Source: Antitrichia curtipendula (taxonomy: Eukaryota; Streptophyta; Bryopsida; Hypnales; Leucodontaceae). From it: a DNA stretch of 64,000 bases. How positions within the stretch are numbered: position 1 is the first letter of the stretch; each line of letters opens with the position of its first letter. Below are positions 3,096 to 63,138 of this stretch, piece after piece. The stretch covers positions 24,262,981 through 24,326,980 of the forward strand of contig OX579640.1 of assembly GCA_951230915.1 (NCBI GenBank), given 5' to 3'. Under the pieces are notes generated by a model. That model was not told the DNA's origin. It made no database searches and saw only the letters and a program-made list of their open reading frames with translations. The translations under genes and the position numbers were made by a program.

Positions 3096-3099
3096 TTAA

Positions 3100-4044
3100 A
3101 CCCTAAAGTCCCAAGGCCTTTCTTCCATAAAAACCACTCAAAATTGCCATTTCTATTGCAAAGAGTAAAAAATTTTAAAATTGTTTTTCTTAAATATTTT
3201 TAACCGTAGGATCTTTTACTATACCGGTATAAGAATGCATGAAAAAAAATTCAAATACTTTGACCACGTAGATTGTAAGATATTTGCATTTAAAGTGAAT
3301 AAAATATATTTTTTTATACCTTGTTCAACTATATTTTTGGTTTTGAATTTTTTTAAATTAAATTTTTGATGGATTGATTTTCATTTTCTAACTTTTCATG
3401 TTGAAGAATAAAGTTGAAAATCTAGAAAAAAAAATTCAACAAAAAAAAATTAATAATTAATAAAAAAGCTAACTTAATATTCTACTTTAAAAATTGTTAA
3501 GTAGAAGTAGGTTCAAAATTGAAGGGATAACTATACCATTTATAGCTCTAAAATGGAATTAAAACACAATAATCTCAAAGGTGAGATTGTTCTAGCAAGC
3601 AAATTTAACCTTGCGTAATATATTTTTTGAAAAATTGTTAAAATTACATTAAAAAAATGAATGCTATAAGTTATTTCTTCAAGAAAATGCTTAGATTGCC
3701 CCCAAAACATGATTGTCCATAACTTTCTCATCATTACTCCAAAATACTCCAAATAGAATGAGTCAAAGCTTTAAATGTAGACAAAAATATAATATTTGAG
3801 GGGGGGAGAAAAAAAATTCAGTTTTTTGTGATTTTTTTTGGGTTGTCCCTGGAGTTGTTTTTTGGACTTAGGGTGGCATAACGTTTTCTCCTAGGCATCG
3901 ATTGAAAAAATAAATAAATCCCAGAAAGCTAATTTGATTTCTTATCTTGTAAAAAAGTTTCAAAAAATCATGTCAAAAATTGAGAACACACAAGCCTACC
4001 CAAAATCCCAAGAGTTCCCCGTAGGGACTTTGGGACTTAAAGGG
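3100..4044 (+). mobile_element. TTAA-flanked piggyBac-like MITE, copy 1 (degenerate ends)
   Basis: Starts after TTAA (3096-3099) with ACCCTAAAGTCCCAAGGCC and ends GGGACTTAAAGGGGTAAC, a decayed form of the family end CTTTAGGGGTTAA. The interior carries the family's ACCACTCAAAATTGCCATTTC stretch near the start and a CCGTAGGATCTT motif, in the same orientation as the 48.8 kb copy. Length is about 945 bp. No open reading frame resembles a transposase, so it is non-autonomous. Confidence 0.75.
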
Positions 4045-4048
4045 GTAA

Positions 4049-5084
4049 CTTCTGCTAATACCATGATTTAAAACACTTTCATTTACATATAGGACTATAA
4101 TTTTAGATTTCTAAAGTACATTTTGAATGTTATAAGACTTTTCTTCACTTTTTTCTTAATAAATTTAACATCTGTAAATTAAATATGAACAATGAATTGA
4201 ATATTGAATTGAATATGGACATGTATTGTGAAACATATATTGAATTGAATATTGAATTGAGCATGTACATGAACTGTGAACGAATGGCAAGCACAGAAAT
4301 TTCCTAAACCCACCAAGAACACCTGCAATGCAAAACTCATCATAAGCCATAATCATGCACAAATTTCGTTTCCAAATCCTATTCAATTTCTGACTGTTCT
4401 AACGAAGCAAGAGTTAAATGAAATTGCGTAAAAAGTTTAGTATACTTAATAAATCAAATCTAGTAATTATCGTTCATTCCATCTCCACGTGTATTGCAAA
4501 TGTAGAATATTGAAATTTTGAAGCCCATGTGTATTGCAAATGCTTTAATGTTAAAACTCAAAGTGAATGAAACATTTTAGTGACCACTACCTTTCAACTT
4601 CGGAAATTTGTAACCAATTCTCAAGAGGTCCAAAAAGTATGAAACAACTTCGGCTGGATCCCAATTCCATTTCACTTCGTACTAAAATTTACTGAAAATT
4701 GTTTGAACTCCACGAGTTGTCTGATGATCCAGGAAACCACGAGGTCAGGTAAAAGTAAAAGTAAAACCTGCTGACCCCACCACGAACGTCAATTACCGGG
4801 CGGGGTTTCACCGGCGCTGGAACTCAAACCCGCCAGACCCAGTTCCGCGAGGCGCCAGATCGTTCACGCAGTGCGACACCGACGATTTTGTGGCATGTGC
4901 GCGGGCTAAAAGCCCGTTTGCTGTTGGGATTTGGCCGCCCACGGTGGCGATGCTCTTAGCATTTGCAATCTCTTGTTGCAGTTGCAAATTCGAATTTCAT
5001 ACGACACACGAAATCTTAAAAAACCACATGTGCCCGTTCTCAATTGATTGATGTTCATCTTCCTTCAATTTGCCTTGGTGAGCT
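4049..5084. other. upstream region of the enoyl-CoA hydratase gene
   Basis: Contains at 4165-4265 a cluster of short repeats of the type TGAATTGAATATTGAATTGA. At about 4575-4700 there is one diverged unit of the repeat TTTTAGTGACCACTAC...GTATGAAACAACTTC that is tandem at 29.2 kb. The last 300 bp become more GC-rich, consistent with a promoter and 5' UTR for the gene starting at 5085. No TATA box was assigned. Confidence 0.5.
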
Positions 5085-8274
<3,190 letters not shown>

Positions 8275-16704: not shown

Positions 16705-16713
16705 ATCCTTCTA

Positions 16714-17173: not shown

Positions 17174-18870
17174 TTATTGATAATAGTTAGTTCCACTTAA
17201 TGATGGTTTGAATCTTTTTAGGATCCATAGAAATTCCATTGCTTGAAATAGTATAATCCGAAAATTTGATTGAAGGTTGGTGGAAAAACATTTCTCTAAT
17301 TTGGCATATAAGCTACATTCTTGTAAATTTTCTAGTACTATAAATACATGATGTTCATGCTCTCTTTCAGTTTTGGAAAAAATCAAATGTCATTCAAATA
17401 GATGACAAAAAAATAGTCCAAATATTCTTTAATCCCTAAAGGACCAAAGTGCATTTTTTGGCAACATAGCAATTTTGGGTAGTTCTTTACAAATAGATTG
17501 CTTATTTTATTTTATTTGAAATTTTCACACAACATGTGCCCAAGGAATAGCTTTAAGGCCCAACAATTTTTGTAACTTTTGACTACATGGTCAAAAAATT
17601 ATTGTATGATATGTAGTTTTCATTACTCGATGGGCAACCCGGGCAGAAAAAAAAACTTCTTTAAAAATTACTTTTTTTTAAAATAAAAATTTGAAATTGA
17701 TTTTTTAGATTTCTATATACATGGAAAGATTTGAATCATTCCATTTTGGTTGATGAAATGAAAAAATGAGAAGTTTTAGTTGAGGGTAGTCTACGGGTAG
17801 TTATGAAATCTTTACTCTAAAATAAGCTTTAAAGTCCTTTATTTAACTCAATTTTCAATACTTTTGGAAAAATATATATATATATATTAGGTGTACATTG
17901 TTTATTACAACATTACTACCATTCGAATTGGCATTTTTCAATTCTATAAATAAATGGTTAACAATTTAGTATTTTGAATCGTTCTCTATTTCTTTCTATT
18001 TACTATTTTTTCCTATATGTTGTACAATTCCAAATGATCTAAAAATTTTTAGGCATGTAGCCAACTTGCCTTGAAGAATTCATCCAAAGAGTAGCCACCA
18101 TTTTGGACATTTTTTCATACAAATGTGACCTTGTGAAGTGCAGCTGCCCAATTTTTCACAAGGACCAAAAAAAGTTATTTTGTCAATTCAAACGCTAATA
18201 TCTTGCAATTCAAAGGGGCGAAATTTCTGAAATCTTTTTCACATCTTCAGAAACTAGCTTAGTGTAAGATCCTATGGTTACATGTGTCCAGAAACATTTT
18301 TTTTCAACAATTTGGTGCTTGTACTAGAAATGACAGTTTTGGAGTGTTTTGGTTGAAAACATAGTCTTTGACCTTTAGGAGTTAAATATATCATTCATCA
18401 TATGTTGGAAAATTGTTGGGACATTTATAAGTTCAAACGGCATTATGTTGTATTCAAAATGACCATACCTTGTACAAAATGTTGTCTTCCATTGACCTCT
18501 TTCTTTGACTCTAACTAAATTGTAAGCACCTTTTAGATCAATTTTAGTGTAAACTTTTGTTTGTACAAGTAGTTCCAACAATCCTAGAATCAAAGGCAAT
18601 GGATAGCAATTTTTATTTATTTTTATTCAATCCTCAATAGTCAATGCACATACGTAAAGAACCATCATTCTTCTTCACAAATAATATAGGTGCCTCAACA
18701 AGTGATTTAGAATGTCTAATGAAATTTTTAGACAAATTTTCCTTAGTGTATACTTGTAATTCTGTTGGTTTTATTTGTGACAAATTATAAATTGGATCAA
18801 ATGGTAGTTGTGTAACTTGTGTTCCATCTTGTAACTCAATTGCATAGCGATAAAGGCGATGCTCAGGTAT
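17174..18870 (-). pseudogene. Ty3/gypsy reverse transcriptase relic split by a TTAA element
   Basis: Upstream part (18870-18386 minus): SLVEAPILFVKKNDGSLRMC and [20 protein letters not shown], then [10 protein letters not shown], where the usual MPFGL is altered. Downstream part (17428-17174 minus): YLND in place of the catalytic YLDD, then a frameshift, then IFSKTEREHEHHV. The two parts are separated by a 949-bp element with TTAA on each side. Mutated active site, stops and shifts show it is non-functional. Confidence 0.9.
17433..18381 (-). mobile_element. TTAA-flanked piggyBac-like MITE nested in reverse transcriptase
   Basis: Flanked by TTAA at 17429-17432 and 18382-18385. Ends are TCCCTAAAGGACC and, as reverse complement of the other side, CTCCTAAAGGTC. 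Similar along its length to the 25416-26356 copy (shared GCAACATRGCAATTTTGGG, GCCCAACAATTTT and GACTACATGGT). Length is 949 bp with no transposase ORF. The interrupted RT frame holds a single TTAA at the junction, so the second TTAA is a target-site duplication. This copy is the key evidence for the family's mechanism. Confidence 0.92.
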
Positions 18871-25411: not shown

Positions 25412-25415
25412 TTAA

Positions 25416-26356
25416 CCCCTAAAGCACTAAAATGCGTTTTTTGGCAACATGGCAATTTTGGGCAACTCACTACGAATGAAGTTTTTGTTGTTTTTCTTTG
25501 AAATTTTCACACAATATGTGCCCAAGGAGAAGCTTTAAGGCCCAACAATTTTCATAACTTTTGACTACATGGTTAAAAAGTTATGGTATGATATGTTGTT
25601 TTCATTGCTCGGCGGACAACCTAGGCAGCAAAAAAAAATTCTTGAAAATTCACTTTTTTTTTAAATTAAAATTTGAAATTGGTTCTCTAGATCTTTATAT
25701 ACATAGGAAAGCTTTGATTAATTCCATTTGGATTAATGAGATAAAAGTTATGGGAGTTTAAGTTTGCGGGTAGTTTGCGGGTAGTTGTAGAATCTCCACT
25801 CTAAGATAAACTTTGAAGTCCTTCATTTAACTCTTATTTTAATATTTTTGAAAAAAATTAAAAATATTAAGTGTAGACTGTTTACCAAAACATTACAACC
25901 ACTGGGATTGGGATTTTTCAATTCCATGAATAAATTGTTAACAATTTAGTGTTTTGAATCATTTTCTACTTCTTTCTACTTACTATTTTTTCCTATATGT
26001 TATATAATTCCAAACGATTTGGAAATTTTCAAGCATGTTGCCAGCTTGCCTTCAAGAATGAATCCAAAGAGTGACCACCATTTTGGGCATTTTTTCATAC
26101 ACATGTGACCATATGAAGTGCAGCTGCCCAGTTCTCGCAGGGCCAAAAAAAGTGTTTTTTTCAATTCAAACGCTAATATTTTGCAATCTACATGGTGGAG
26201 ATTCCTGAAAAAAATTCCACATGTTCTCAAATTAGTTTACTACAAGATCCTACGGTTACATGTGTTCAAAAAAGTTTAAAAAAAAATTTGGTACTTGTCC
26301 TAGAAATGGCAGTTTTGGAGTGTTTTGGTAAAAACAGTGTTAGAAACCTTTAGGGG
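25416..26356 (-). mobile_element. TTAA-flanked piggyBac-like MITE, well-preserved copy
   Basis: TTAA at 25412-25415 and 26357-26360 enclose CCCCTAAAGCACTAAAATGC at one end and CCTTTAGGGG at the other. Colinear with the 17433-18381 copy over the full 941 bp, including the GAGTGTTTTGGT stretch next to the right end (reverse complement of ACCACTCAAAACTGCC in plus-oriented copies). No coding capacity. Confidence 0.92.
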
Positions 26357-26360
26357 TTAA

Positions 26361-26736: not shown

Positions 26737-26817
26737 TTAAAGACTGGTTTATTATTTAGCCCCTTGCTTGCTTGGTTTCTTCTTCCTAATATACAAAGTT
26801 TTTCTTACATTACTATA

Positions 26818-27226: not shown

Positions 27227-27228
27227 TA

Positions 27229-29736: not shown

Positions 29737-29738
29737 TA

Positions 29739-35999: not shown

Positions 36000-36003
36000 T
36001 TAA

Positions 36004-36477: not shown

Positions 36478-36481
36478 TTAA

Positions 36482-39001: not shown

Positions 39002-39037
39002 TTAATCCCCAAAGTCTAAAGCCGTTTTTATGATTAA

Positions 39038-39252: not shown

Positions 39253-39256
39253 TTAA

Positions 39257-40091
39257 CCCCTAAAGGACCAAGCCATTTTCTGACTCCGAAACCACTGAAA
39301 ACTGCCGTTTCTGCTGCGTTCATTCACGAAGTTTTAAAAATAGTTTTTTTGAAAATGTAACCGTAGGATCTTAAATTTAACTTCTTTGAGAGGATTCTGT
39401 AAAAATTTCATCAAATTTGACCGTACGGATTGGGAGATATTTGCATTCAAAAAGAAAAGTTTTTTTTTTCCCCACTGTGCCCCAGAATTTCAGATGACTT
39501 TGACCACCTTGTGCTCAAATTTTTTGCACTACACACCATAGGTTTAAATTTTTTTTCTTACATTTAATGAAGTTAGTCATATGCATGCCAATTTTCATAT
39601 CAATCCAACATCCCGAGCACATGCCAAAAATTCTTGTAATGCCACAATGTCCCAAGAATTGGCAATACACTACTGAATTTTCGAATCAAATTTCCCACCA
39701 CATACTTAGAGATATAGAAAATCCGAACGGTGGATACATAGATATACTCAGACTTCACTAGTAGGAACAAAAATTTCTCAAAAAAGTGAAAATCTCTAAT
39801 TTCTATGACCTTCCAAAGTTCGATTACAGAGTGGGCAGCCCTTGTAGAAAGGGACCCAAGATGTCAAACAGCAATTCCTTTGCCACAGCTGCCCTACGAA
39901 CTGCTTTGGAGGTAAACAACATCATAACTTCTACAGCACATGTTGGATTATGATGAAAATTATATGTACGCGAAGCTTGTGAGAAGCTACACGCACACAA
40001 AAAGTTTCAAAAAATCAGGTCAAAAAACCACTTTGAACGACCTTGCCCGAAATCCCAAGTGTCCCCCAAGGGGACTTTGGTCCTTTAGGGG
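39257..40091 (+). mobile_element. TTAA-flanked piggyBac-like MITE, well-preserved copy
   Basis: TTAA at 39253-39256 and 40092-40095. Ends CCCCTAAAGGACCAAGCC and GGTCCTTTAGGGG are exact inverted repeats for 13 bases. Contains AACCGTAGGATCTT (39359 on) and GACCGTACGGATTGGGAGAT, shared with the other copies. Length 835 bp. Confidence 0.93.
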
Positions 40092-40102
40092 TTAAGGGTT
40101 AA

Positions 40103-40950
40103 AAAAACGACTCAAAGCTACCATTTCTATTGCAAAGAGCAAAATCCTTCAAAAGTTGTTTTTGCATATTCATTAATTGTAGGATCTTATATTAGACTAG
40201 AATCATAACAATGTGTGTGAATTTTTGTAGATTATTCGACCTAAAAGATTGTATTATAATAGCATTTGAAGTGAAGAATACAAGTTTTTTTTGTACCTCG
40301 TGTGACTAGATTATAAGACTTTGAATCTTCTTAGCTAAAATTTTTAGTATTACAGATTTTGAATTACAAAAAATATTATATTGAAGAATTGAGTTGAGTT
40401 TTAGGGGTAAAAATTTCAAAACAACACATATTTGATTTTCATTCTTCAAAAAAATTGTTAAGTAGAAGTCAATGGGAGATTAAAAGAAAAAACTAAATTG
40501 ATAATAGCTCTAAGTTGGAATTGAAATACACTAATCCCAACATTTAGATTGTTCTAGAAAACATACTAAACCTTGAGGATTTAAAATATAAAAAAATTGA
40601 GTTCAATAGCAAAGCCAAAACATTATTTTCTCAAATTTTTTTTATGATTCCTTTCATAAGAAGAAGCTTTATTGACAACTTTCACACCATTAATCTAAAT
40701 GAAATGAATCAAAGCCTTCCATGTAGACAAAAATACAATCTATGAGGAGGAAAAAAGATCAACGGCTTTCTTTTTCCCCAAGTGACCTAAACTTTGGAAT
40801 TAAGATGGCATAACTTTTGCTCTTGGGCATGGATTGAAATGAAAATTACAATCCCATAAAAGGTTCCAAAAATTGTGTCCCAAATCGAGATCATATAAAC
40901 CTGCCCAAACTTTCATTTGTCCCCTAAGGAGACAATGGAACATTAGGGAG
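40103..40950 (+). mobile_element. TTAA-family MITE, 5'-truncated, adjacent to the previous copy
   Basis: Starts after TTAA 40099-40102, only three bases beyond the preceding element's TTAA, but lacks the CCCCTAAAG end and begins within ACGACTCAAAGCTACC. The interior follows the family (TGTAGGATCTTATATTAGAC). The right end GGAACATTAGGGAGGTAAT is a decayed CTTTAGGGGTTAA. Confidence 0.7.
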
Positions 40951-43001: not shown

Positions 43002-43003
43002 TA

Positions 43004-43581: not shown

Positions 43582-45127
43582 TGGATGTCACAAACATTTT
43601 CTATTTGGAAGTCTATAGTCATCACATATAATGCTAAAATAACCATGTAGTTGAAAATTCATCATTTTTAATTGTTTGAAAGAGAAAAAGATTATATACT
43701 GTTATGAAGAACTTAAAGTATGTGAAATTTTGTTATAAAGGACAAAATGAGGTTTTCCAATTCAATTTACTAACTCTACCTTTGTCTCTAAAAAAATTAT
43801 GGTCTCTAGTGGAAAACTAGTAAAAGTATCATAGATTTATTTTGAGACAAAAGAATTAATGGATGAAGCCTATGATCATGTAGTGTAGCTTTTCCAAAAG
43901 AACTTTTGTACGCTTCAATTCATTTCTATACATGAATGATTTTTAATTGATTTTTTCCTTCAAAAGTGCAAAATTAAGTCATCTATTACAAGTTATAAAA
44001 ATTTCTTATTTTTGTAAATATTTAAAGCTTGTGACTTTTTGAAGGAAAAGTGAAGGAAGTTAATATAAAAAAGAAACCAAGCTAGGAAGTCTATTTTTTC
44101 ATCACTCAAATATATTTATGTGTAGAACATCATGGTTGAATAGATATTGTATCATTAATCTTTGTAAACTTGATGTTAGTCTCTCAACTTCAAATAACAA
44201 TAAAATACTATTTTTTATGAACCTTTTAAACTTTCAACATAGCAAATAGTAAATTTATTATACTTCCTTTTGTTGATTTCTCTCATTCTCAAGATTTGAA
44301 AAATCCTTTGGAATGTGAAAAATCAATATTTTATGGACTCAAAAGCTACAAGTGTTGAAATACACTACATAATATTTCATATTTTGGAAATAAAATCTCC
44401 TATCAATCACATACAATTAACATAGCTTAACCATAAAACAACATGTTTTTGGCCTAGCATAGAGCCCAATGGGGAATCCAAAAATCTCTTTGAAGTCAAG
44501 CATGGGTCTTGCTTCTTGCCCAAGGTTTATGTGGTGAAGGCATGTAAAATTGACTAATAAACAAAGCTTTGACTTTGCAACCTAAATGCCATGCAAGGCA
44601 AGCCTTAATCTCTATAAAAGTTGGTCCTATTGTTTGATACATTCCAAAAAAAAATTTTAAGCCTCTATTCGTCAAAGATTCATTAAAAAAAACAAGTCCA
44701 AAGATCTTGGCTTGTCATTTTAAGGGTTAGTATGATCTCAATGATATGGATATATGAAGTATCATTAAGCTTTAAAAAAGTTGGTTTACATTCATCCATT
44801 TTTTAGGATGAAAAATAATTGTTTCACTATATATGATACATTATCCCATAGTTGAGTCAATGCCAATTCTATTATGAACGTGAACTTTGAGATGCAAATT
44901 ACTAGAAGAAAACCTTGTTACTCTCAAGTCTCAACACAATCTACACGACATTTTTGTTTTCTATAACGTAAAAACATAAATGGTATGTAGATTGTATTAA
45001 GAGCAACAATGTTTTTTTTACAATTAGATGTGAAAAAATAACAATTTTTAAAGTTTCTTGCTATTTGGAATAGAAATGGCAATTTGGAGTGTTTTTAATT
45101 GAAAAAAAGGCCTTGGGACTTCCAAGA
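43582..45127. other. AT-rich spacer with TTAA-family end fragments
   Basis: Near 44715-44730 (TCATTTTAAGGGTTAG) and 45060-45127 (AATGGCAATTTGGAGTGTTT, GGCCTTGGGACTTCCAAGA) are recognisable end segments of TTAA-family elements, the latter in reverse orientation with its TTAA at 45128-45131. A complete element could not be delimited. Confidence 0.5.
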
Positions 45128-45131
45128 TTAA

Positions 45132-45870
45132 CCCCTAAATGACGGACCCATGACCACTATTTCAAGCCTCAATGCCCATCACTTAGTTTACTGCCATTTT
45201 GAAACTAGATATGTATGAGATTTTTATATTTAATTTTCAAAGACAAAATTACATGTCTTCTTTACTTCACAAAATTTTCAGATTTTTTCGTGGAAAACTG
45301 ATTTTTTTGAGAATTTTTGAAAAAAAGGTGAAGAAAAATCACACCAAATAGAAAATTATTTCAAAAAATATGAAAATTTCACCATGTATATATATAAAAA
45401 TGACAAATACCATAGTGTAAACTCAATTTCCATGTCATTCTATAATTGGAATTCAGTAGACATTGAAAATACATCCAAAGTTCAAATTGCAATAAAATAT
45501 TCAACGTTAGGATTTTTTTCAAAATTCAAATTGGAGTAGAAACCGAAGTAGATGACCTTTGTTTTGATAGTTGGGCTCAAACTCAAATTTTTACCATTTT
45601 TGTGAAGAAATTTCAGATTTAGAGCAAGGAGCAACAACATCCCAAAATACATTAAAATAGCATATTTTGTGATCTGTTTTTTTGTAATAACTTCCCATTT
45701 ATGTGAAAAACAAAACAATGGCAAGATTACAAACTCAACTGGATATTCTTCGTAACCCAACATGAAAGGTCAACAAGGAAAACAGGGATTAAAAAAGTGC
45801 TTCCCATAGTTTCACAGCTCATTGGACTGTCATTCCGGCGCCACATAATGGCGCCGGCAGCATTACAGGG
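45132..45870. mobile_element. TTAA-flanked element with CCCCTAAATGACGG end
   Basis: Between TTAA 45128-45131 and 45871-45874. Left end CCCCTAAATGACGGACCC, right end reversed CCCTGTAATGCTGCCGGC; only about the first 11 bases pair. Just inside the right end is a GGCGCC...GGCGCC repeat. Length 739 bp; the interior is not obviously related to the 950-bp group. Confidence 0.55.
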
Positions 45871-45894
45871 TTAAAGCAAATAATTCACACAGTA

Positions 45895-46220: not shown

Positions 46221-48100
46221 CCCCCAATGGGGTGATCACAGCGCAGCCTTCTAGGATTAACAGAATAGGAACCCCAGTCAAATGCTAAAAATATAATTTT
46301 ATTTATTTTTTTTTTTTTTTTTGTAAGTGCAGTCCTTTTCCCATAATCCCCATGTGAGTTTTGGAGGTTCTAGTAGTGTGCCCAGTCCAGGCTCTTTCCT
46401 GAAAGTAGATAAGAGGGCACTTGGACAGCGTGAGCTCCACAACCCAAAGCAATCAGCACATGGCGGTCTGCAACTGAATTGAAAACAGAGTCCACGCCTT
46501 TTCTCTCGGTCCTTCCGTCTGCCCGTCCCGTGAGTCCGTGAGTCCCCCGTCGTTGCCCATCCCGTTTACTGATGAGGCAATCAATCAATGGGGGGTAAGG
46601 CAGGTAAGGAGAAAAAAGGACCGTAAGAAGACGGAGACTGAGCTCAGTGCCGCAGGGCCCGTCAGCGCCTTTCTCTGAGCCTCTCCTGCGGCTCGCACAC
46701 TCCAATCCACTCGTAAGTACAAAAGAAAAACGGGAAAGTACAAAGGCCGATGATTTCGTCACATGGTAGGCCATTGAAGGAGGTGTAAGTGAGATATAAT
46801 GTACACTATTGACCACAGCCGCAAGGTGAGGGGGAAGGAAGAAAGGAGGGAGGAGTCCAGTCCGGACTCAGCTTGGACTCATCAGTCCAACTGCAGCTCC
46901 TCCATGATGCTGCCCGAACGAGAATTCGCCAAAAAAAATTTCGTGAATTTTGAGGGCGGGTGGGCTTGCTCATTCGCTCAGCAGTCAGCACAAGCAATGG
47001 GATTTTTGTTTTTTACCGTCCGGAATGTGGAGGGAGATTTGCTTTGTCATAAGTGAGTGAGGACAAGAAGGTCATGCGCTAATTTTGTGCTCTCAAAGGT
47101 TTACAAATTGTCTTCAGGGGTGGGTGGGGTAGAGGGAGGAATGGATGGATGCACACCTACTTCTATTTAACAATCTTTCAAAGAATGAAATTCAAGTCTC
47201 TTTTTGAAATTTTTATTCCTACATTCACAAATCAATTCTTCAACATAAAAGAAATTTTACACCCAAATTTGTAGTGCAAAAGTTTTAAGTTAAGAAGGTT
47301 CGAAGTCATATATATTTACACTAGGTGCAATAGATTTTTTTTTTTTTCCCACTTTAAATGCTAATATCTTGCAATCAACGAGGTCAAAGTTTTTAACATT
47401 TTTGCTACACATTTTTATACTAATCTAGTGCAAGATCATATGGTTAATATGCAAAAAAGAACAATTTCTAATTTTTTTGTTCTGTGCACTAGGAATGACA
47501 ATTTTGAGTAATTTTTGATGAAAAAAAAGACCTTGGGACTTTAAGGGTTAAAAACACAAAAAGTTGCTCAAACCCTCATAACTTTTGCTACTTATAGGAA
47601 CCTCAAAAAACAAATCTTACGACATAAATCATGTCATGTAGAAGCTACATAAAAATCTTAATTAAAAAAATGAGAAATATTAAGCTATTAGGATGTGCAC
47701 AAAATTATCAAAAGAACAAAGATGGTCTTCAAAATTTCATAGAAGGTAAGTGAGATATTGGTGTCCATTCCACTCCCATGCTCAAATATATCTTATGTGC
47801 CACTTGTTGAATTATTTGTCTAAAATGGGCAAAAATTGCCATTGTAAATGATTTTAATTCTATGCATTTTATATTATATATAGGTATAAAGTGTCAAAGC
47901 TTATATATATGATTTATAGTCTTTCTAAAAATGATTAATATACACGTTGATGTAAAATTTTTAAAAGCATTTTCAAATTTTGACTTTAATAATTCACATA
48001 AATTGCAAAACATCCTCTCTCTCCATATATTTATAATTAATTTAAGCTATAGTTTCTAGAGAGTTCATTTTATTCACTTCATTTTAATGTATTTGAGAAT
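46221..48100. other. GC-richer island then AT-rich repeat debris
   Basis: 46370-47110 is distinctly more GC-rich, with open frames on both strands (46370-46816 minus, 46799-47056 plus) that match no family; a degraded gene or promoter is possible. 47335-47547 is the end portion of a TTAA-family element in reverse orientation (GACCTTGGGACTTTAAGGG before TTAA 47548-47551) whose other end is lost. Confidence 0.45.
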
Positions 48101-48104
48101 TTAA

Positions 48105-48785
48105 TCTCTAAAGTCCAAAGTGTTTCCTTGAAGGACACTCAAAGGTTCGGTCAAGTTTTAATGATCTCAATTTTTTTTATGATTTTTTTACCCTTTTATC
48201 AGATAGTAAAATAGATAAGCTTTCTAGAAATGTAACTTCAATTTCAAGCAATGACAAGGAGCATAACCAATGTTTTACAAAGCTCAAAATAGTCAAGCTT
48301 AGGAAACAAAAAAACATTAAAAAAAAACTAAAATAATTATTTTTAAATTTATTTCTTATACATTTTATTTTTATCTAGATAGAAAGAATTGATTCATTTC
48401 ATTTGAATTAATAATGTGAAAGTGATGGAGCATCTTGTTTTGCAAGAAATCATAGCATCTTCTTGAGAAAATAATATATTTGATTTATACTTTCATTCAA
48501 AGAATGAATCCAAAGAAGCACCACCATTTTGGACATTTTTACATGCAAATGTGAGCTTGTGAAGTGCAGGGTCCAAAAAAAGATTTTTGTCACTTCAAAT
48601 AATAATATCTTGCATTCCACACGGTGGAAATTTTTTAATTTTTTGTCACATCTTCTCAAACAAGAGTACTATAAGATCCTATGGTTACATATGTCCCAAT
48701 TTATTTTTTATTTTTTCTAAATTGTGGACTTGTACTAGAAATGGCAATTTTTGAGTTTTTTGGATGAAAACATAGTCAATGAACT
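48105..48785 (-). mobile_element. TTAA-family MITE, reverse orientation, abutting the next copy
   Basis: TTAA at 48101-48104 and 48786-48789. Left end TCTCTAAAGTCCAAAG. The right part reads AGAAATGGCAATTTTTGAG and GAAAACATAGTCAATGAAC like the 17433-18381 copy, but the last CTTTAGGGG is missing. The second TTAA is also the left TTAA of 48790-49717, so one element inserted at or over the end of the other. Confidence 0.7.
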
Positions 48786-48789
48786 TTAA

Positions 48790-49717
48790 CCCCTAAAGTC
48801 CCAAGGCCATTTTTCCATCAAAACCCACTCAAAACTGCCATTTCTAGAGCAAAGAGCAAAAAAACAAATTTAATGCTTATTTTGCATATTTAACCGTAGG
48901 ATCTTGTACTAGACTAGTGTAAGAATGTGTGGAAGAAATTTCAGAAATTTTGACCATGTAGATTGCAAGATATTTGCATTTAAAGTGAAGGAATCTAGTT
49001 TTTTTGTACCTTGCTCAACTACATTTTTCGGCTTTGAACCTTTTTAACTTAAAATTTTTTCTCTAATGATTTTGAATTTCTAATTTTTTATAATGAAGAA
49101 TTGAATTGAGAATCTAGAAAAAATAAATTTAAGAAGAAACACTTAGTTTTCACTCATTAAAAAATTATTAAGTAGAAGTAGGTTCAAGATTGAAGGAAAA
49201 ATTAAATCATTAATAGCTCTGAGATAGAATTGAAATATACTAATCTCAACGGTGAGATTGTTCTAGCAAGAAATCTTGACCTTGTGAAACTTTTTTTTTT
49301 TTTAAATTGTTGAAATTGAGTTCAGAAATGAGTCCTACAAGTTATTTTTTCAAAAAGATGGTCTAACTGCCCGAAAAATAAGATTGACTATAACTTTTGC
49401 ATAACAAACCCAAATGGAATGAATCAAAGCTTCCCATGTAAATAAAAATAAAATCTATACGAAACAAATTTTTTAAATTTTAAATTTGAAGTTTTTTTGA
49501 GGATTTTTTTCTGCCCGCCGAACTAAAATTTGGGGTTTTTCTGCCATAACTTTTGCTCCCGGGCACTGATTGAAATAAAAATTACATTTTTGGAAAGCTA
49601 ATGTGATTCTCTATCTTCACAAAAAAAAAATTCAGAAAATCACAAAAAACATTGAGATCGTAGGAGCCTGCCCGAAATCCATTTTGTCCCCCGAGGGGAC
49701 AATTGGGATTTTAGGGG
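48790..49717 (+). mobile_element. TTAA-flanked piggyBac-like MITE, best-preserved plus-orientation copy
   Basis: TTAA at 48786-48789 and 49718-49721. Ends CCCCTAAAGTCCCAAGGCC and GGGATTTTAGGGG. Interior order: ACCCACTCAAAACTGCCATT, AACCGTAGGATCTTGTACTA, GACCATGTAGATTGCAAGAT, then CCATAACTTTTGC twice, TGCCCGAAATCC and a GTCCCCCGAGGGGAC palindrome near the right end. Length 928 bp with no transposase ORF. It can serve as the reference for the group. Confidence 0.93.
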
Positions 49718-49721
49718 TTAA

Positions 49722-51990
49722 GGGTTAAACTCGTAGCGGTCCAACATCCAATTGTGGATGATGAATAAAGAAGTTCCTTAGACTTCTTTTACCACACAAC
49801 TTCTCATGCATCCAAACCAATGCTTGACATATTTGAAAAAATACTTTTGTATTATGAATTTGATATGAAATAGAGATAAATAATATATATATTATAAAGA
49901 TCCAAGGCAAAAATTAAAGAAAAGATTCAGGCACACCAAGAGCGTGCCCATCATGCTTGAAAAGCAAACGAATCTGTTAAAAGGTTATCCCATTTGCAAG
50001 ACAAGCCGGCAGCCTCACCTAAAACCAACCTGCCTTGGCTGATTGATGGTCGATTACCCGGCAAGGGCTTCACAGGGGTGGGTTCATTCAATTTCTAGGC
50101 TGAGTCACTGGGCCCAGTGGGTTTTTTTTTCAGTTTTTTTTTGGGGCCGGGGTGAACTGACCCCCTCGCTTGTCCCCATGGGAAAACCCTGAATTTTTTA
50201 ATTTTCCATGCATGATTTTTTTGCAAATTAGGGGGGGTGTAGAAAGTATATTTTACACGGCACAAAATAGGGGGCTTTTTTTTTTATATGCACCCCTGGA
50301 TGGACTTTGGCAGGACGAGCAAAAGGGGCCAGTTCACCCCGGCCGTTTTGGGGGGGGGGCAACTTTGATTCTGCAATGTGCAAACATGTGCATCTGATGG
50401 ATTCGTCTTTCTGAAGAGGAATTATTCAAATCATCCGAGAAGTTGGAGCTTTACGTACAAAAAATATCCAAAATATCAGGGTACTTACCCTCCCAGTGAT
50501 TAATTTGTACCAACGTCAACAGAAGCGAAGGTGGGTAGAACGGTACCATTCAAACCTAGCCTACAGATTTTTTTCAATAGGCAATGCTCCAAAACCCATT
50601 CCGACTGTCAAGTCTGTAATCTTCACATCAAGTACATGTGGTAGGAGACTGTTTTCAAAACAAATACCACAACTGAATTTTGTCAATCTAGCATCCCAAG
50701 AATATATATTGTGTTTTGAACATTTTAAACTAGTATGCCCCTATGCCTTTGTTACAACCAAAATAAAAGTAAAAATATTTTTTCTTACAACTTGTTTGTA
50801 TAAAAAATAACTCAAATATCCATCAAGTTTCATATCGTAGGTCCAAACGCCACGAATCAAAGCCTATGCATCCCTCCTCGTAGAGAGCTTTCCGACAATC
50901 CCAAAAACGCAATTGCGGGATGTACGGTCCATAAGATATCACCTATCAAACAAAATAAATAATATTCTATAGCTGTTTGTTTTTGTTTTGTTTGCTATAA
51001 TGAAATCTCCTAGACCTTGCGTACCTCGATTGCGCTCTTGGTTTAGTCGGTAAACCCTCGGGAAAGAGGGATGCACAAACTTTTTGTTTCAAATTCATGG
51101 CAAAAAACATATTGAATTTTGAAGTTTTTTATTTATGGATTACAAAATTAGAAAAAAAATTACTTGAGATTTTTATTTGGGAGTGTAGCAAGGGCACATG
51201 GCACACTAGTAAACGAGTGAAATCATCCAACCTCGTGATCTTTTCAGAATGCTGAACATCTAAGCTTACGTCATCTGGCGCAGGTGCCTTTCATCAGTTC
51301 CGTGAAAATTCCACCCACTCTCACTGATTATTTGCAAGTTGGGGAAGGACACCTCTCGGTTCCAGTCCTCTCTCTCCGTCCCGGGTCAAAAAACAACGGG
51401 ACTGTGAAGTTTCAGTTTTTGAATGTCAAACGTGTGACAAGTGTGCGACGGTGAATTACGCTGCGACAAGTGGGCGAGATATTCCGGAGGGTCCGTCGTT
51501 TTACAGAAGCCCGGTCATGCAGGCATACTGAAGAGGTCTGATTGAGTGAATGATGCAATCATAAATTTCCACACGAAACTTGCAACATGCTGCTGTGGAG
51601 TACTGCAGCAGGCCTAGCTACAGGAGCAAGGCATCACCCAACCATCCCAAAATTTGGGCTACATTACCAGAACTTACGTTAAGGTGAAAAAACCGACACC
51701 CCACAAAACTATAAAAAAAAAAACTAAAACCCAGCAATTCAGCATGGTTGGAAGCACTTTTCTCAGAAGAAAAAAAACAGACATTACTGTAGAATTAACA
51801 ATTGAAAATTACAAAATTTTCAGGGAAAAAAATATATATCATTTTTGGATAAGATATGTCATTACTATGAATTTTCAAAGTGGAACTTTCCTAGGCCACT
51901 AAAATTGTCAACCATAGCTTAGTCATAATACTGAAATCTAGAGAAGGAACAGCCACTAAAATAACATTCAAAGCAAGAGGTCCTCATATA
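49722..51990. other. spacer of mixed composition, no gene supported
   Basis: 50000-50400 contains homopolymer runs of G and T (for example a G run at 50350-50358). 51190-51640 is GC-richer. No reading frame, splice pattern or tRNA could be supported. Confidence 0.4.
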
Positions 51991-51993
51991 TAA

Positions 51994-52930
51994 CCCCTAA
52001 ATGGTCAAGGCATGATATTTGGGTGTTGTCAACATTTTGAAGTTAAATAAGATATTATTGTATTCTTGTTACAGTTGAAAGTCCTAAAAAGTCTGTTTTA
52101 AGCATCAAAAATTTGACTTTTAAAAAATGATTATGATTTCTCTATTGAAGATTATGTGAGCGGGTGTCCATTGCAAATCTTGACATTTTATTGTGACAAG
52201 CTCTTGGAGATGAGCTTCAAATACACTAGATTGAGAAGAAAAATCACATTGAAAATTCATTTAAAAAAAAAATGGTATAACAGATATTAAGAAGCTATAA
52301 AGTAATTGTGGTTACAGATGTTATGTCTTTTAATCCTTGAAGTTCCTAAGCTCAAAAATAATAAAATACTCTCGAAGGTGCACAAAAACATCAACTTCAA
52401 CAAGAAGAGTTGTAAATAAAAATATTTGCATTTTGAAGAACTCCTAACCGTAGAATCTCATTCTTGACATGCGCTACAATGACATATATATAATTTATAG
52501 AGCTTCAAGGCTTCACAACTATATGCATGCAAAAAAAGTAGTTTTTACTACTTCACTTGAGTTGAACAAAATAGTCCCAAAATCATTTTGGATTTAAAAG
52601 AACTTTAGAAATTAACCTCATATCTTTTCCATGACCTTGTATTTTTTTCATGGCCTCAATTCCAAATTTAATATGTAATAAGAGGATTGATAGACTTCAA
52701 ATCACTTTCATTTTTTTAATATCCTCATGAAAAAATACTATAAACTTCATTTCATAAGTAATATTATTATACTTTCTTTACCTATGTGATCCATAACATG
52801 TTGAGTTTGAATTCACAAGGTTACAATTTCAAAGCTTATCAAACTAATGAAACTTATTGTCAATTTTTTTTTTTTGTTTTATTTAGAATAAATTTTAAGA
52901 AACTCAAAAAAGACCTTGGATATCTAGAGG
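51994..52930. mobile_element. possible diverged TTAA-family element
   Basis: Left end CCCCTAAATGGTCAAGGC is preceded by ATAA and not TTAA. Right end GACCTTGGATATCTAGAGG reversed gives CCTCTAGATATCCAAGGTC, pairing loosely with the left end. The 937-bp length fits the group. Target duplication is not intact. Confidence 0.45.
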
Positions 52931-54755
52931 ATAAAAATTAAAAATTAAAAAACCTTACAATTGTTGAACATTGAAAGTTCAACAAACATAATAATTGGAA
53001 TAAATAAACTGACATTTTGTAGTTAAGCACTAGTTTGCATGAATAAATTAAACCTTAAGACCCACATCTAGTGTAACCAGTTTTGGGAATTGAAGATTGG
53101 ATCCATCTAAGCATGTTTTCTACTACATTGGTTTGATCTATTAGTATATATTATAATATCAACTTATATTATACATGGTTATGACTTTTTGCAAAAGAAA
53201 AATACTTTTATCCATTTTATTTAGTTTTTGTCGTTTAATAATAGCTCAAAGAAGCAAAAAAATAGATATGCCATGAGCTCTTCTTTCTTTGGTCTATGAT
53301 TACATATGTACTATTGTAAGGACATTCATAAACACCAGGTTTTTTTTATGAATAGTTTCTATTATTAGACCTATAAAATCTTTATAGTTTCCATTGGCAA
53401 GTGACATGAGATTTCATTGCACCAAGTTATGAAGAGTCAAAGTTTTGTTGCTTGATGCTCAAAGCTTGTTTCTTCAAGATTAAGTACATATTGATTTTGG
53501 AGATGTGCACAGTGTGAGCATCTCATCAAGTAGGCACATTTGGATACATCTACTTTTATTAGTACTATTCATGTCAAATAATCTTTGCAAATATCATTGA
53601 TAAATATATTTCTATCTTGTAAAAAGATATATGTAAGTTTGTTTTGTATCATGTACCGATAAAACAAATTAATGTAGTGAAAGAAAATAACAAATAAGTA
53701 TCTACAATGAAAGAACATCTAATGCACCAATTATTATTTCTTCATATTTGTGAGTAAATTACCTTATGAATTATAGAGATCCCTTCTCCTTGCTCAATAA
53801 TGTTATGCACCAAGCATATTCTAGAATGTCGTATTGCATAATTCTCCTATATTTTGGTCGATGTCTATGCAAATTTCTCATTATTTGTATTGGGCAATTG
53901 GTATGTAAAGCCACAAGGTAAAAATACCTAATTATGATCCCTTTTTAAATTTGACCTTCTATATTCTTGCCTAAAAACTTCTCCCACTATTTATAAGAGC
54001 CTAGGGTTGATTTTAGAGACACCTATAATTTCAGCACTTTCAAAATTTATAGTTTACTCAAACGATGCCTAAAAATGCATTCTAAGAGAATCTACAATAA
54101 CCTTTTGACTATCAATAAGACCCCACAAAAACTTTTTCAGTATAATAACCAGAAGTATATTGATTTGAATGCATTTAGACCATGGATTTAGGTGTTATAA
54201 GTTACCTCAAGGAAAATCCTATTTCAACTTATTGTGTATAAGCTCTCTTTACCAAATAAGTATTGAATAAGATACAAAAAATTAACCTTTAAAGGGCGTT
54301 GCAAGCCTGGTGGGCATTTTGAAAGTCAAACCTCAATTTTCACATAACTTTTTTTCAAATGCTTTCAAGTTGAACTATGAAAACGTAGCTCTGATAACTT
54401 TTCTTTTTATTATGTATTTTTTATTTTCCATTTTATTATTATTATAGTTCGTGTAATACTTTGAAAGTAGTACTGTGAAAGCTTAATATCCACCACTTTT
54501 GAACTTCTTCTATCAAATTTTTCTTGGTGTGAGCTTAAGGAGTACAACAATTATACCATAATATCTATCACTATTATCTTCAAAACATTGTACTATTTTA
54601 AACATTTTTAAAATTACAATGATGTTGATAAAAAAATTATTTAAAAAATCCATATAAATTATATTGTAACGTTTTTAATTGTGAAAGAATGAAGAAAAAT
54701 TCCATATACAAATTACTACATGATTTTCAAATATCAAAATTTTGAAATGTGTGTT
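52931..54755. other. AT-rich spacer with one further TTAA-type end
   Basis: At 54282 the text TTAACCTTTAAAGGGCG starts another possible TTAA element running to the TTAA at 54756-54759; its right end is not recognisable. Nothing else is supported. Confidence 0.4.
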
Positions 54756-54759
54756 TTAA

Positions 54760-55503
54760 CCCCTAAAGTCCTATAATTATCCCCTTGGGAGACAAAATGG
54801 ATTTTAGGCAGGCTCTTGTGGTTTCAATATTTGTCGTGATTTTCTGAATTTTTTGTAAAGATAGAAAAATACATTAGCTTTCCAAATGTTATGTGAAAGT
54901 TATGGACAATCTTGTGTTTTGGGCAATCAAAGCATCTTCTTGAAAAAATAACTTGTAGGATTCATTTTTTACCTCAATTTTCACAATTTTTCAAAAAAAT
55001 AAATTCATAAGGCTAGGATCTCTTGCTAAAACTATCTAAGTGTTGAGATTAGTATATTTCAATTCCTTCTTAAAGCTATTAACAATTTAGATTTTCTTTT
55101 CAATCTTGAACCTATTTCTACTTTCCAAATTTTTAATGACTGAAAACTAAGTATTTTTTTAATTTTACACTTTTTTAAGACTCTCAACTCAATAATTTAT
55201 CTTATAAAATTCAAAATTCAAAATCAGTAGATCAAAAATTAGAAGTTGTGAAGGTTCAAAGCCAAAACATGTAGTTGAGCAAGGTGGAAAAAACTTGTTT
55301 CCTTCACTTTAAACGCAAATATATTGCAATCCACATGGTCAATTTTGTGAATTTTTTTTCACACATTCTTATACTAGTTTACTACAAGATCATACGGTTA
55401 GATATGCAAAAAAATATTAAATATATATTTTTGCTCTTTGCTATAGAAATGGTAGTTTTGAGTGTGTGTTTTTTATGGAGAAGAGGCCTTGGGACTTTAG
55501 GAT
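54760..55503 (-). mobile_element. TTAA-flanked piggyBac-like MITE, reverse orientation
   Basis: TTAA at 54756-54759 and 55504-55507. Left end CCCCTAAAGTCC, right GGCCTTGGGACTTTAGGA. The interior reads in reverse relative to 48790-49717: CCTTGGGAGACAAAATGG at the left, ATCCACATGGTC and AAGATCATACGGTT at the right. Length 744 bp, with internal deletions. Confidence 0.85.
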
Positions 55504-55698
55504 TTAAATATAGAAAACTAAAGAAGTTTGACCAAGTGGAAAATTTCCTAAACCCTTTCAAAAGTTAAAGGCAATTTCAATTTTATTTTTTTTGATACAA
55601 AAGAAATGGGATTTCAGTTATTCTTTAAAGGACGCTACGACCGTATTTTGGCTAGTGAACGACAAAAAATATTTTTATGCATGACGGAAGTGCAACTA

Positions 55699-56147: not shown

Positions 56148-56717
56148 TATCCATTGTTAGAATTTTGTGTTGAAAGGGGAGGTCTTCTACAATAGTTTGA
56201 CTTCCAATGAGTGCTTCTAGATTTTTTTAAACTAATCATTCACACGGTACTAAAATTGATGATTTCCACCATACCCAAATGGATGATTTCCACGGTACCC
56301 AAATGGATGATTTCCACTGTACCAAAATGGATGATTCACATGGTACCAAAAATGGATGATTTCCACGGCCACCGGTCCGTCCTTCAAGGGTTAAAGACAG
56401 TCAATGCTGGCTGAGCAACATAAATTATCCTTGTTGCTTCTCTTTGGGGAAACAGTGATCCAAGACACAAATGTCTTTCATCCGTGAGACAGACAATGTA
56501 CAGTCCCGAACGTTTTGCAAGACCAGACAGACGGACAATCAATAGGGTGTTCCAAAATATGGAGTCGCACACTAAAAGCTTAACTGCCACGCTATTTATG
56601 GTTGTTTTCACAAATGTCTACGTGTGATGATCTCAGTGGTGACCTGGTCCAGTTGGTTCTAATCTTTGTAATTTGGATTGTTACTAAGGTAGAAAAGGCC
56701 TAAAAACGATCATTGAA

Positions 56718-57789
56718 CCCCTAAATGCCCAAGGCCTTTTTTGAGCTTTGAGGAATTTGCTCTAAATTGAACACAAAAGACAACATTTTTATGAGTTGTA
56801 TCAATTTTTTTTTTAAATTGTAGCCATACAGATTCAAACTAGATATATTAGAGACTACATAGAGAAATAAAATAAAATAAAAATAAAAAATAAAAAAATA
56901 TATATATATATATATCACTAATGAATTGAAAGATTATAATGTTTGGTCATACTAGAGATTCAAACTAGACATCCTAGAGATTTTATAGAAAAAGAAAACA
57001 CAAAAATAACAATTATGGATGGAGGATTATAGTGTTTGATCATGAGGGTGTTAAATTTGCAAAATTGATTTAGAGTCTTTTAATCTTCTTCTTACATGTC
57101 AAATCTAAAAAGTTGTCCATCCAAAAAATATGAAGATGAAGGGCCTAACCAATGGGGGGTTTTCCGGCGATTTGGTGCAAAATTGCACCAAATTTTTTGA
57201 CCTAGCACCAAGCCTATAGGAAATTTTTAGTAAATTTTTGGATGAAATCACCAAAAACCTTCAAGTTCAAGAAAAATATTGGATGAAATCGCCACATTGT
57301 GAATGAAAATAGAATTATAGATACGTAGTATCACATTTTCTATACAGCACTAGGATGAATGTTGAAACTTGGAGCACCACGGTAACATTTAATATCGCCA
57401 CTTCGCCACTTCATGGAAAATGAAAAAAAAAAAACTGGGCCTAACATGCATAACCCCAATCAATTTATGGCTTCTCAAAATCTACTCTATATTTTTCTTA
57501 AAGGAATTTCTAATGTGATTTTTTCTCCAAGATCTAGTGTATTTGAGGCTCATTTCCAAGAGCCCTCAACACTAAGGAAAGTCAAGATTGTAATGGACAC
57601 CCTTGCACAAAATCTTGAATAGGAAAATCATAATCCATCATTTTCAAAATTGTATTTTTGATGCTAAAACTAGACTTCAAGAAGAGTTTTTCAAAAAATA
57701 TAAACTACTAAAAATAGCAATTTGGTTAGCTTTTATATAACTTCAACGTATTGTGGACACTAAAACTTGGTGCCTCGAGCATTTAGGGG
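56718..57789. mobile_element. TTAA-family element with an inserted type E repeat
   Basis: Left end CCCCTAAATGCCCAAGGCC (preceded by TTGA), right end reversed CCCCTAAATGCTCGAGGCACC, followed outside by TTAA (57790-57793). The interior contains the type E repeat at about 57165-57425, which makes it longer (1072 bp) than the rest of the group. Confidence 0.65.
57165..57425 (+). repeat. dispersed type E repeat, copy 1
   Basis: Shares TTGGATGAAATCGCC, GAATGAAAATAGAATTATAG, GGATGAATGTTGAAACTTGG and AGCACCAC, then ATCGCCACTT...GCCACTTCATGG with the copies near 61.5 and 63.6 kb. The left part (TTTTCCGGCGATTTGGTGCA) also recalls the third copy. No duplication was identified, so the class is unknown. 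Confidence 0.8.
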
Positions 57790-57793
57790 TTAA

Positions 57794-59485: not shown

Positions 59486-59488
59486 TAA

Positions 59489-60931: not shown

Positions 60932-60933
60932 TA

Positions 60934-62552
60934 CCTAATGCCATTAAATTTATGTAGAAGAATATGTGAATTTTCATTATAAATCATTAATCCTTGAAAG
61001 GCACAAATCCCATGACTAAGGTAGTCACTATAACTTTGGGAGGGTGCATAAGGTAGAAGTACCTATTTTTGATAACGTAAATATTTTAGCCTTTAGGATA
61101 TAGAAAATTTGTTGAAAAATTGAGGACAAATAAAAATAAAAATAAAAAAATTTCCAAGAATTTATATTGTATTCAATATACATGTAGATTTTTCATTTGG
61201 ATCCATTTTGGTCTCATAGACTTACCTATTACGGTTAGCTTTGGCACTTCTTCCTAAACAAGGAGGGAAGAGAGATGAGTGGACGAGAAGGTATAAACAA
61301 ATAACCTTTTTCAATGAACAATGCATCCAAGTATTGTCTATAATAGGTCACCCTAAAAAGCCTTCACAAAGGGGTTTGTTTGAAATAGGTACTTCTACCA
61401 TGTTAGTATTAGATTGCATTAGGAAGAATTAATTAAGCGAAAAAATGACAATAAACCATGAAGTTTTTTATTGGAAAACTTCAAATTAAAAAAGATCTTA
61501 GATGAAACCGCTAGATTGTGGATGAAAATAAAATTGTAGACATGTGATAAACGCTAATGTGATATCTTCTATCCAAGATGTGAATGAATGCTAAACTTCA
61601 AAGCACCACTAAAATATTTTATATCACCACTTTGGCACTTCATAAAAAAAGAAAATCTCCTTGATAATTACCTAAATGCTCTAATTATTGTCCAATAGGT
61701 GCATTTTTTTGTTTCTATAGTAAATACTAAAGTCATTCAACAAATATTTTTAGTCTTCGATGTCCTTCAAGAGTTAATATATATAGTTTGGTGTACAATT
61801 AAAATAGGAAAATTTAGCATACATCTTCAAACATTTGATTCATAAATTCATTTGAAAATTGTCGACATTATATGTTTTCAATGTTATAAATTCAAAACAG
61901 GATAACATATTAAAATTTGAATGAGGGGGTGAAATCTCTAGTGCAAATAATGTGATAAGAATTCACTTTGATATTTATTTTTAGTATCTTTCAACTTGGA
62001 TACCTCAAATTGCATGTTATATTTTACAAGTTAACATTGACAAATCAATCAATCATCCTATGATCCATGTTCATCATCTCATAGGTTTCTTATCCTGTCC
62101 TAATCTTTTTTCTAAAATGTTAGATGAACAAATCCTTTTAAATTCATGAACTGAACTTGCTACAATAAGCTAATCTATGCATGAAAAATCATCAATTTCT
62201 AAACTATTTTTTGGGATTGTACTAAAGTGTTACTTATTATTTGTCTGTTTTTTCTATAATTTTTTTTTCTTCAACTAAAAGGTTGATTATGTAATATATT
62301 GGATATTTGATCTTGAGTTATATGCCAAGTTGGATTGGATGCCCACATTTGAACATGTCCTAAACTAGATATCAATGTATTAAATGTGACACTTTAAATT
62401 CTCTAATATCTCAAAAATGAACTTATTGAATATCAACATGGGATTGTAGTTGATTGTTACAAGTTTTCAAGGTTGGACAATAGGAATCAAGAGAGGTTTG
62501 GGACATGACAAATGAAAAGTGAAGTATTACGTGCTTCAATGATAAAAAAAAT
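60934..62552. other. AT-rich spacer with type E repeat copy 2
   Basis: 61500-61655 matches the type E repeat (GATGAAACCGCTAGATTGTG; GTGAATGAATGCTAAACTTC; CAAAGCACCACTAAAATATT). The remainder holds no gene or element end that I can support. Confidence 0.6.
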
Positions 62553-62556
62553 TTAA

Positions 62557-63134
62557 CCCCTAAAACCCTGCTTGTCCCCTCAGGTGACAATTTGGGTCTA
62601 GGTAGGTTCCTATTGTCTCAATTGAAGTGAATTTTTTTGAGATTTTTTGAAGTTGTGTAGCTTTGCAAGAGCTTTGTGGATATATAATTTTTGTTTCAAT
62701 CGAATGCTGGATGAAAAAGTTATGTCACAATGAGCAAGAAATAGAGATTGGCGAGCAGCCCAAAAAAAATTACAAAAAGTCAAAATAATTTTTTTTGAAT
62801 TTTTTCCCTAAAAGATTATGTTCTTAACTATACGTGAAGCTTTGATTCATCCTGTTTGGACTAGGGATGAGAAAGTTATGGACAATCTTAGTTTTTTGGG
62901 CAATTTAAGCATTTTCTTGAAAAAAAACTTTTTGTTTAACTTTGAATGCTAATATCTTCCAATCCGTACTGTCAAATTTGATGAAATTTTGACTACATGA
63001 TCTCAGACAAATTGAGTACAAGATCCTACGGTTAAATTACCGAAAAACAAAAAAATTGGTTTCCTTAAGTGAATACAATAGAAGTGGTAGTTTTGAGTGT
63101 TTTTTGGCAGAAAACACCCTCGGGGGTTTAGGGG
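62557..63134 (-). mobile_element. TTAA-flanked piggyBac-like MITE, short copy
   Basis: TTAA at 62553-62556 and 63135-63138. Ends CCCCTAAAACCCTGC and GGGGGTTTAGGGG. Interior reversed relative to 48790-49717: TGTCCCCTCAGGTGACA palindrome at the left, GATCCTACGGTTAAAT and GTAGTTTTGAGTGTTTTTTG at the right. Length 578 bp, internally deleted. Confidence 0.9.
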
Positions 63135-63138
63135 TTAA

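Follow-up and report, generated by a model that had tools for sequence, protein, structure and literature searches.

Candidate non-autonomous piggyBac families in the moss Antitrichia curtipendula and a putative autonomous relative

A 64,000-nucleotide stretch of the Antitrichia curtipendula genome (assembly GCA_951230915.1, contig OX579640.1, positions 24,262,981 to 24,326,980), hereafter the window, contains a series of short segments whose inverted ends abut the tetranucleotide TTAA. We consider it highly probable, judging from sequence comparisons, that these segments, comprising a main family designated F1 and its companions F2 to F5, are non-autonomous piggyBac elements of 0.2-1.1 kb, similar to miniature inverted-repeat transposable elements (MITEs), that have been moved by full elements located elsewhere in the genome. 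F1 itself is identified on these grounds as a non-autonomous piggyBac family, and F2 to F5 are very likely of the same kind. An initial sequence-only reading of the window had proposed a piggyBac-related family with an autonomous partner elsewhere, and this proposal is supported both by empty sites that carry a single TTAA and by the finding of a transposase-bearing element, designated E, that possesses both F1 ends.

End motif, families and target site

Self-comparison of the window groups the segments into five families, with F2 to F5 sharing the end motif of F1. F1 is represented by eleven copies or pieces (3.1, 17.4, 25.4, 39.3, 40.1, 45.0, 47.2, 48.1, 48.8, 54.8, and 62.6 kb), the longer of which measure 835-949 bp, and identity among them is 65-81% (alignments of at least 300 bp). 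F2 is represented by three segments of about 220 bp (26.5, 39.0, and 56.2 kb), F3 by two of about 1 kb (56.7 and 52.0 kb), and F4 (36.0 kb) and F5 (45.1 kb) by one segment each. Ten F1 intervals cover 7.8 kb of the 64 kb, and all 17 compared intervals cover 11.8 kb. The sequence-only reading had treated the segments as a single family, a view that the self-comparison does not sustain, no F1 match being listed for the interiors of F2 to F5. Its observation that interiors are common to copies in both orientations holds in the same comparison, as does the absence of an open reading frame: no frame of at least 150 amino acids lies within any F1 copy, and the longest stop-to-stop stretch is shorter than 100 amino acids.

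The end motif TTAACCCCTAAA or its complement occurs exactly 12 times in the window (36.5% G+C over 64 kb). Allowing up to one mismatch raises the count to 25, and 100 dinucleotide shuffles average 0.66 occurrences and never exceed 4. Throughout the searched assembly (400 Mb, 303 contigs) TTAACCCCTAAAG is found 19,350 times (9,594 + 9,756), and a reversed-letter control 18 times (12 + 6). The motif is genuine, yet it is common to several families rather than the property of one. A telomere-like reading of it (CCCTAAA) was considered and set aside, no search aimed at it having been made. Nine segments had been named as bearing the motif at both ends with TTAA directly outside. Four of these (25.4, 39.3, 48.8, and 62.6 kb) have exact CCCCTAAA ends and TTAA on both sides, and each of the remaining five departs from this pattern on one side or both. 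Specifically, the 56.7-kb segment has the motif at both ends with TGAA instead of TTAA on the left, the 17.4-kb segment has TTAA on both sides with ends reading TCCCTAAA and CTCCTAAA, the right end at 36.0 kb reads CCCCTAAG, and at least one end is degenerate in each of the 3.1- and 54.8-kb segments.

Of 6,954 CCCCTAAAGGACCA ends in the assembly, 6,106 (88%) are directly preceded by TTAA; the respective controls occur once and not at all. With the outer T all but invariant, the full TTAA, and not TA alone, is the target. These counts bear on the suggestion that the segments are MITEs of a TA-duplicating (Tc1/mariner, Stowaway-like) or TTA-duplicating (Tourist-like) kind, flanked by TTAA through chance. 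Passages of two surveys place plant MITEs mostly in these kinds (PMC12550479; PMC10004981), and a TA duplication with A...T ends would give identical joined empty sites. However, TTAA is exact at 88% of ends, where base composition would predict about a third if the outer base were free; the TA duplication with free outer bases of Tc1/mariner (Stowaway) elements is not what is found; and the partner element described below encodes a piggyBac transposase, all of which renders such an origin hardly credible. Inverted ends beginning CCC, in the form CCYT that is quoted for the piggyBac superfamily in a passage of PMC10175614, are found in the window segments as well as in element E.

The TTAA target is duplicated on insertion, as in piggyBac elements, and empty sites retain one TTAA, as the initial proposal implied; this is seen at the junction of an interrupted Ty3 frame and at three paralogous sites with an exact TTAA. 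The 17.4-kb F1 copy interrupts a putative Ty3/gypsy reverse-transcriptase frame, assigned by its motifs. When the flanks are joined with one TTAA, the frame crosses the junction for about 15 codons to the next stop, and when they are joined with two or zero TTAAs a stop appears within a few codons; the frame breaks again farther along, such that the junction evidence is a short stretch. The interrupted element is a broken Ty3/gypsy retrotransposon (window 16288-19190, minus strand). Two further copies are nested: the 48.8-kb copy occupies a TTAA that belongs to the CCCTTAAA end of an earlier F1 copy, and the 39.3-kb copy likewise sits in such an end of an older F2 segment. In both cases, joining the flanks with one TTAA restores a TTAACCCTTAAA end.

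Joined sites were also constructed for 24 copies (7 from the window and 17 from the genome), 23 of which were usable (36004 was excluded, its right TTAA having been missed). Among the sequences compared, a paralogue other than the copy's own site spans the junction for 6 of the 23, the pairs including L013 with L022 (89%, 136 bp), L024 with L002, and L018 with window 52199-52323. The latter member of each of these three pairs contains an exact single TTAA, and the other spanned targets contain one altered or gapped stretch. Since the 17 genome copies were chosen for TTAACCCCTAAAG at both ends, their own TTAAs are not independent evidence.

Element E and the piggyBac transposases of the genome

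The partner anticipated by the sequence-only reading, bearing a DDE_Tnp_1_7 transposase, was found by searching the assembly: element E (C1:4387183-4394172 on contig 1; locus L052) spans 6,990 bp including both TTAAs, its ends begin TTAACCCCTAAAGG, and both F1 ends are matched. E starts with TTAACCCCTAAAGGACCAGCCTGC and, from the right end inwards, reads TTAACCCCTAAAGTTCCTTCACTATG; between 2600 and 5500 it carries a PF13843 transposase frame of 967 open codons (stop to stop, start not set). A twin on contig 9 (C9) shows 99.2% identity across 6,998 columns, the likeness ending at TTAA on both sides and the flanks being different; one stop lies inside its transposase frame. A protein search adds a third copy at 98% on C5, whose bounds were not set, together with a further seven long matches at 67-78%. 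A short match of the 3' flank of L052 and L061 to the F1 interior led to the prediction that the right end is an F1 end, which extended flanking sequence bore out, and the right end of L064 and L065 aligns with the F1 end over 378 bp.

Within the window, the copies at 17429-18385 and 25412-26360 match both ends of E, with order and orientation preserved (83% and 81% for E 1-54, 67% and 72% for E 6742-6990, respectively). Each of the ten F1 segments compared has some match to E, which in the other eight is partial and mostly at the right end. Elsewhere in the genome, the F1 copies L012, L013, and L015-L017 are 67-69% identical to the last 378 bp of E, and L010 is 79% identical to its first 205 bp. 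Two complete piggyBac elements served as controls, T40 (C7, 5,161 bp, CCCYTAAACGACG ends) and T42 (C10, 5,315 bp, CCCYTTAGGGCCG ends), and neither matches any of the ten window F1 segments at an E-value of 0.01 or below. By sequence, F1 qualifies as a MITE family, having both ends in common, in order, with a transposase-bearing element and no transposase of its own. Kolobok and Sola3 elements also duplicate TTAA, and the segments could be MITEs of either superfamily with piggyBac as a bystander; that a piggyBac element has both F1 ends in order, its right 378 bp aligning to F1, makes this very improbable.

Several observations weigh against assigning the segments to piggyBac partners of this kind. 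E is a relative rather than a direct parent, the F1 ends being only 67-83% identical to it, and the F1 middle (about 350 bp) is absent from E. Both E ends occur in order in only two of the ten window F1 segments, and the segment at 39257 matches E over 18 bp alone at each end. One F1-type partner, in two copies, is delimited on both sides; the flanks of two further E-like transposases gave no second partner, L068 showing no TTAACC end and L069 a nested F1 piece. As to the companions, only the segment at 39034, among three of F2, matches the right end of T40, and it does so over no more than 20 bp; F3, F4, and F5 show no match to E, T40, or T42.

Should F1 and its companions be piggyBac elements as proposed, transposases of full elements elsewhere in the genome would bind the segment ends, excise the segments, and reinsert each in another TTAA. 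F1 would be served by relatives of E, whose transposase may mobilise it in trans, and relatives of T40 might do the same for F2. Successive rounds could have produced thousands of copies, some of them inserted into the TTAA supplied by the CCCTTAAA ends of older copies.

Matches to PF13843 (piggyBac transposase, DDE_Tnp_1_7) number 116 scored of 907 first-look candidates in the assembly, the weakest listed having an E-value of 1.1e-69. The 14 control genomes scanned alongside yielded no match, a result given no weight here. A tree of the best 30 domains contains several deep clades, and the genome contains many piggyBac lineages, of which only one is tied to F1 at both ends. D170, D259, and D376, taken to be the three catalytic aspartates, are fully conserved across all 10 aligned moss transposases and align with the Asp motifs of piggyBat. 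As to a C-terminal Cys-rich domain, a Cys/His pattern is visible in the alignment, but none of five scanned proteins matched a second Pfam family (E-value of at most 0.001). Downstream of the domain, nine of the 30 loci (one doubtful) have a GGTTAA-type end at a distance of up to 1.5 kb, and 21 have none in their 1.5-kb flanks.

That the families derive from piggyBac and are long dead, with past movement only and no working partner left, is possible though unlikely. Such a reading accords with the divergence of the window F1 copies noted above and with internal stops in ten of the best 30 transposase domains and in the C9 twin of E. Against it stand the near identity of the two E copies, an F1 subfamily (L013, L015, L016, and L017) at 96-97%, and the 20 of 30 domains that are free of stops. 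The E copies and this subfamily point to recent movement, and the window F1 copies, as gauged by divergence, are older.

Other candidates did not withstand scrutiny. L009, L010, and L043, in which convergent exact ends lie 2.5-4.8 kb apart, had been considered as long autonomous elements and are neighbouring or composite MITEs with no transposase. An F1-type end beside the L036, L053, and L060 transposases had been considered as their own right end; because it points away from the gene and its position is shared by the three near-identical copies, we regard it as nested. These three piggyBac loci lie on different contigs, and an autonomous element has apparently carried the F1 copy along within it. 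Equal-scoring piggyBac pairs occur at C218:1407924 (minus) and 1454774 (plus), in opposite orientation, and at C8:10378023 and 10568624, both on the minus strand, and segmental or palindromic duplication is a possible origin of both pairs.

Segments and neighbouring features of the window

Segments of families F1 to F5 in the window, with the basis of each assignment
Positions	Strand	Family and description	Basis
3096..4048	+	F1, 945 bp, degenerate ends (left TTAA, then ACCCTAAAG; right GTTA, then CCCCTTTAAG)	72% to 48786-49721; 71% to right part of E, 167 bp
17429..18385	+	F1, 949 bp, TTAA both sides, within Ty3/gypsy reverse-transcriptase frame (minus strand; presumed, see text)	E 1-54 83%, E 6742-6990 67%
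25412..26360	+	F1, 941 bp, TTAACCCCTAAAG both ends	left to E 1-53 81%, right to E 6742-6990 72%
39253..40095	+	F1-type, 835 bp, exact ends, in TTAA of CCCTTAAA end of older F2 39034-39256	matches first 18 bp of E only, at both ends
40103..40860	+	F1 fragment without either end	self-comparison, E comparison
45024..45121	-	short F1 fragment	self-comparison
47155..47551	-	F1 fragment, one TTAACCCTTAAAG end	motif, self-comparison, E comparison
48097..48789	-	older F1, CCCTTAAAG end split by insertion of 48786-49721	self-comparison, joined flanks
48786..49721	-	F1, 928 bp, exact ends; followed by GGGTTAA remaining from split end of older element	motif, joined flanks
54756..55512	+	F1, 749 bp, degenerate right end	self-comparison, E comparison
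62553..63138	+	F1, 578 bp, exact CCCCTAAA ends, TTAA both sides	motif search, E comparison
26512..26740	+	F2, about 220 bp, TTAACCCATAAA at one end	85% to 39034-39255
39034..39256	-	F2, 20 bp of end match right end of piggyBac element T40 (TTAACCCTTAAACGACG)	self-comparison, element comparison
56161..56394	-	F2 fragment, TTAACCCTTGAAGGACGG end	motif, self-comparison
56714..57793	+	F3, 1,072 bp, CCCCTAAATG ends, TGAA left, TTAA right	motif, self-comparison
51990..52950	-	F3 relative, ATAACCCCTAAATG at one end	self-comparison, motif
36000..36481	+	F4, 474 bp, CCCCTAAAAG and CCCCTAAGCG ends, TTAA both sides	motif
45128..45874	+	F5 candidate, 739 bp, CCCCTAAATGACGG and CCCTGTAATGC ends, palindrome near end	motif

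A palindrome (e.g., GCC...TGTGGC) lies just inside the terminal repeat at one end of L040 and L041 and at the 36477 and 45870 ends in the window, an architecture common to several piggyBac elements and MITEs. Genes recognised by eye from the frames include exons of an enoyl-CoA hydratase-like gene (5579-7990, plus strand) and two NAC transcription factor genes (12440-14715, plus strand, and 31303-32983, minus strand). The NAC protein spliced from 32.98-31.30 kb on the minus strand is closest, among named proteins, to one from Ceratodon purpureus (72%, full length), which places the host among mosses, and is 92% identical to an environmental protein. Two tandem arrays, with repeat units near 104 and 116 bp (21496-21794 and 29159-29622), are related to other window stretches. 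One dispersed repeat, 76-90% identical, occurs at 26816-27071, 43002-43232, and 45893-46167 and is not tied to TTAA ends. A second occurs at 27058-27230, 29159-29742, 60596-60904, and 4592-4707; this repeat is also represented just outside T40 (L040, about 6008-6304) and partly downstream of E in L064.

Comparison with known systems

PiggyBac and piggyBat elements target and duplicate TTAA and have ends beginning CCC. The L031 and L052 transposases match by sequence the solved chains 6x67, of Trichoplusia ni piggyBac, and 9c0f, of piggyBat, with E-values of at best 1.5e-35 and 3.6e-21. The likeness consists of a homologous transposase with aligned acidic motifs; the differences lie in the moss host, in element lengths of 5.2-7.0 kb, and in the moss ends, CCCCTAAAGG, CCCYTAAACGACG, and CCCYTTAGGGCCG.

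Among 42 relatives recovered with one moss query, those named come from a wasp and from cichlid fish, and some additionally bear a ferret label. A ten-sequence moss profile (7,997 candidates scored) yielded 187 relatives, the best 120 of which comprise 119 without an organism name and one from a shark. No named land-plant protein appears among the relatives listed in either search, both of which have a word-based start, such that distant plant relatives may be missed. A scan of viral contigs for the moss transposase gave no match. In a rapid tree built from 51 sequences (13 moss, 34 environmental, and four chosen named animal proteins; root and long branches uncertain), the moss rows and 20 environmental rows form one clade, with a Shimodaira-Hasegawa-like approximate likelihood ratio test (SH-aLRT) value of 100, apart from the named animals. 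We lean towards the view that mosses are an overlooked home of piggyBac, with many deep lineages in one genome, some of them recently moving, seeding several MITE families (approximately 19,000 exact ends), and that similar transposases, common in environmental contigs and many perhaps of moss origin, are absent from named plant protein sets through repeat masking.

Passages of a beetle study describe CCCT-type ends, TTAA duplications, and several clades in one host group, much as seen here; intact beetle elements measure 2,074-3,465 bp and encode 500-725 amino acids, whereas the three delimited moss elements are longer and the E frame reaches 967 codons (PMC12732532). Piggybac-like MITEs and TTAA also appear together in part of a paper on corals (PMC2872659), from which the present case differs in its land-plant host, an F1 length near 0.94 kb, and thousands of ends. 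With regard to plants, passages of the literature include PiggyBac among the MITE superfamilies of angiosperms (PMC10004981), count 1,230 PiggyBac copies in the repeat table of a fern genome (PMC6890710), and record one copy in a grass genome (PMC8319324). The likeness to the moss families is one of label, these passages containing no paired transposase element, common ends, or empty sites. The beetle study's own passages portray piggyBac as occurring widely among animals, fungi, and protists but only occasionally among plants (PMC12732532). In the literature searched, a partial sample and hence weak evidence, moss piggyBac elements are not reported.

This picture of occasional occurrence would be altered by a land plant whose genome contains numerous piggyBac lineages, copies that are nearly identical, and MITE ends in the thousands, and such a genome would offer a native plant system for TTAA-directed transposition. 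Surveys that sort plant MITEs into five main superfamilies, as in passages of PMC12550479, may misfile or miss such families. Set beside the systems described above, what is new is the host and the scale: piggyBac widely spread in a land plant, in which an autonomous relative of F1 has been found as well.

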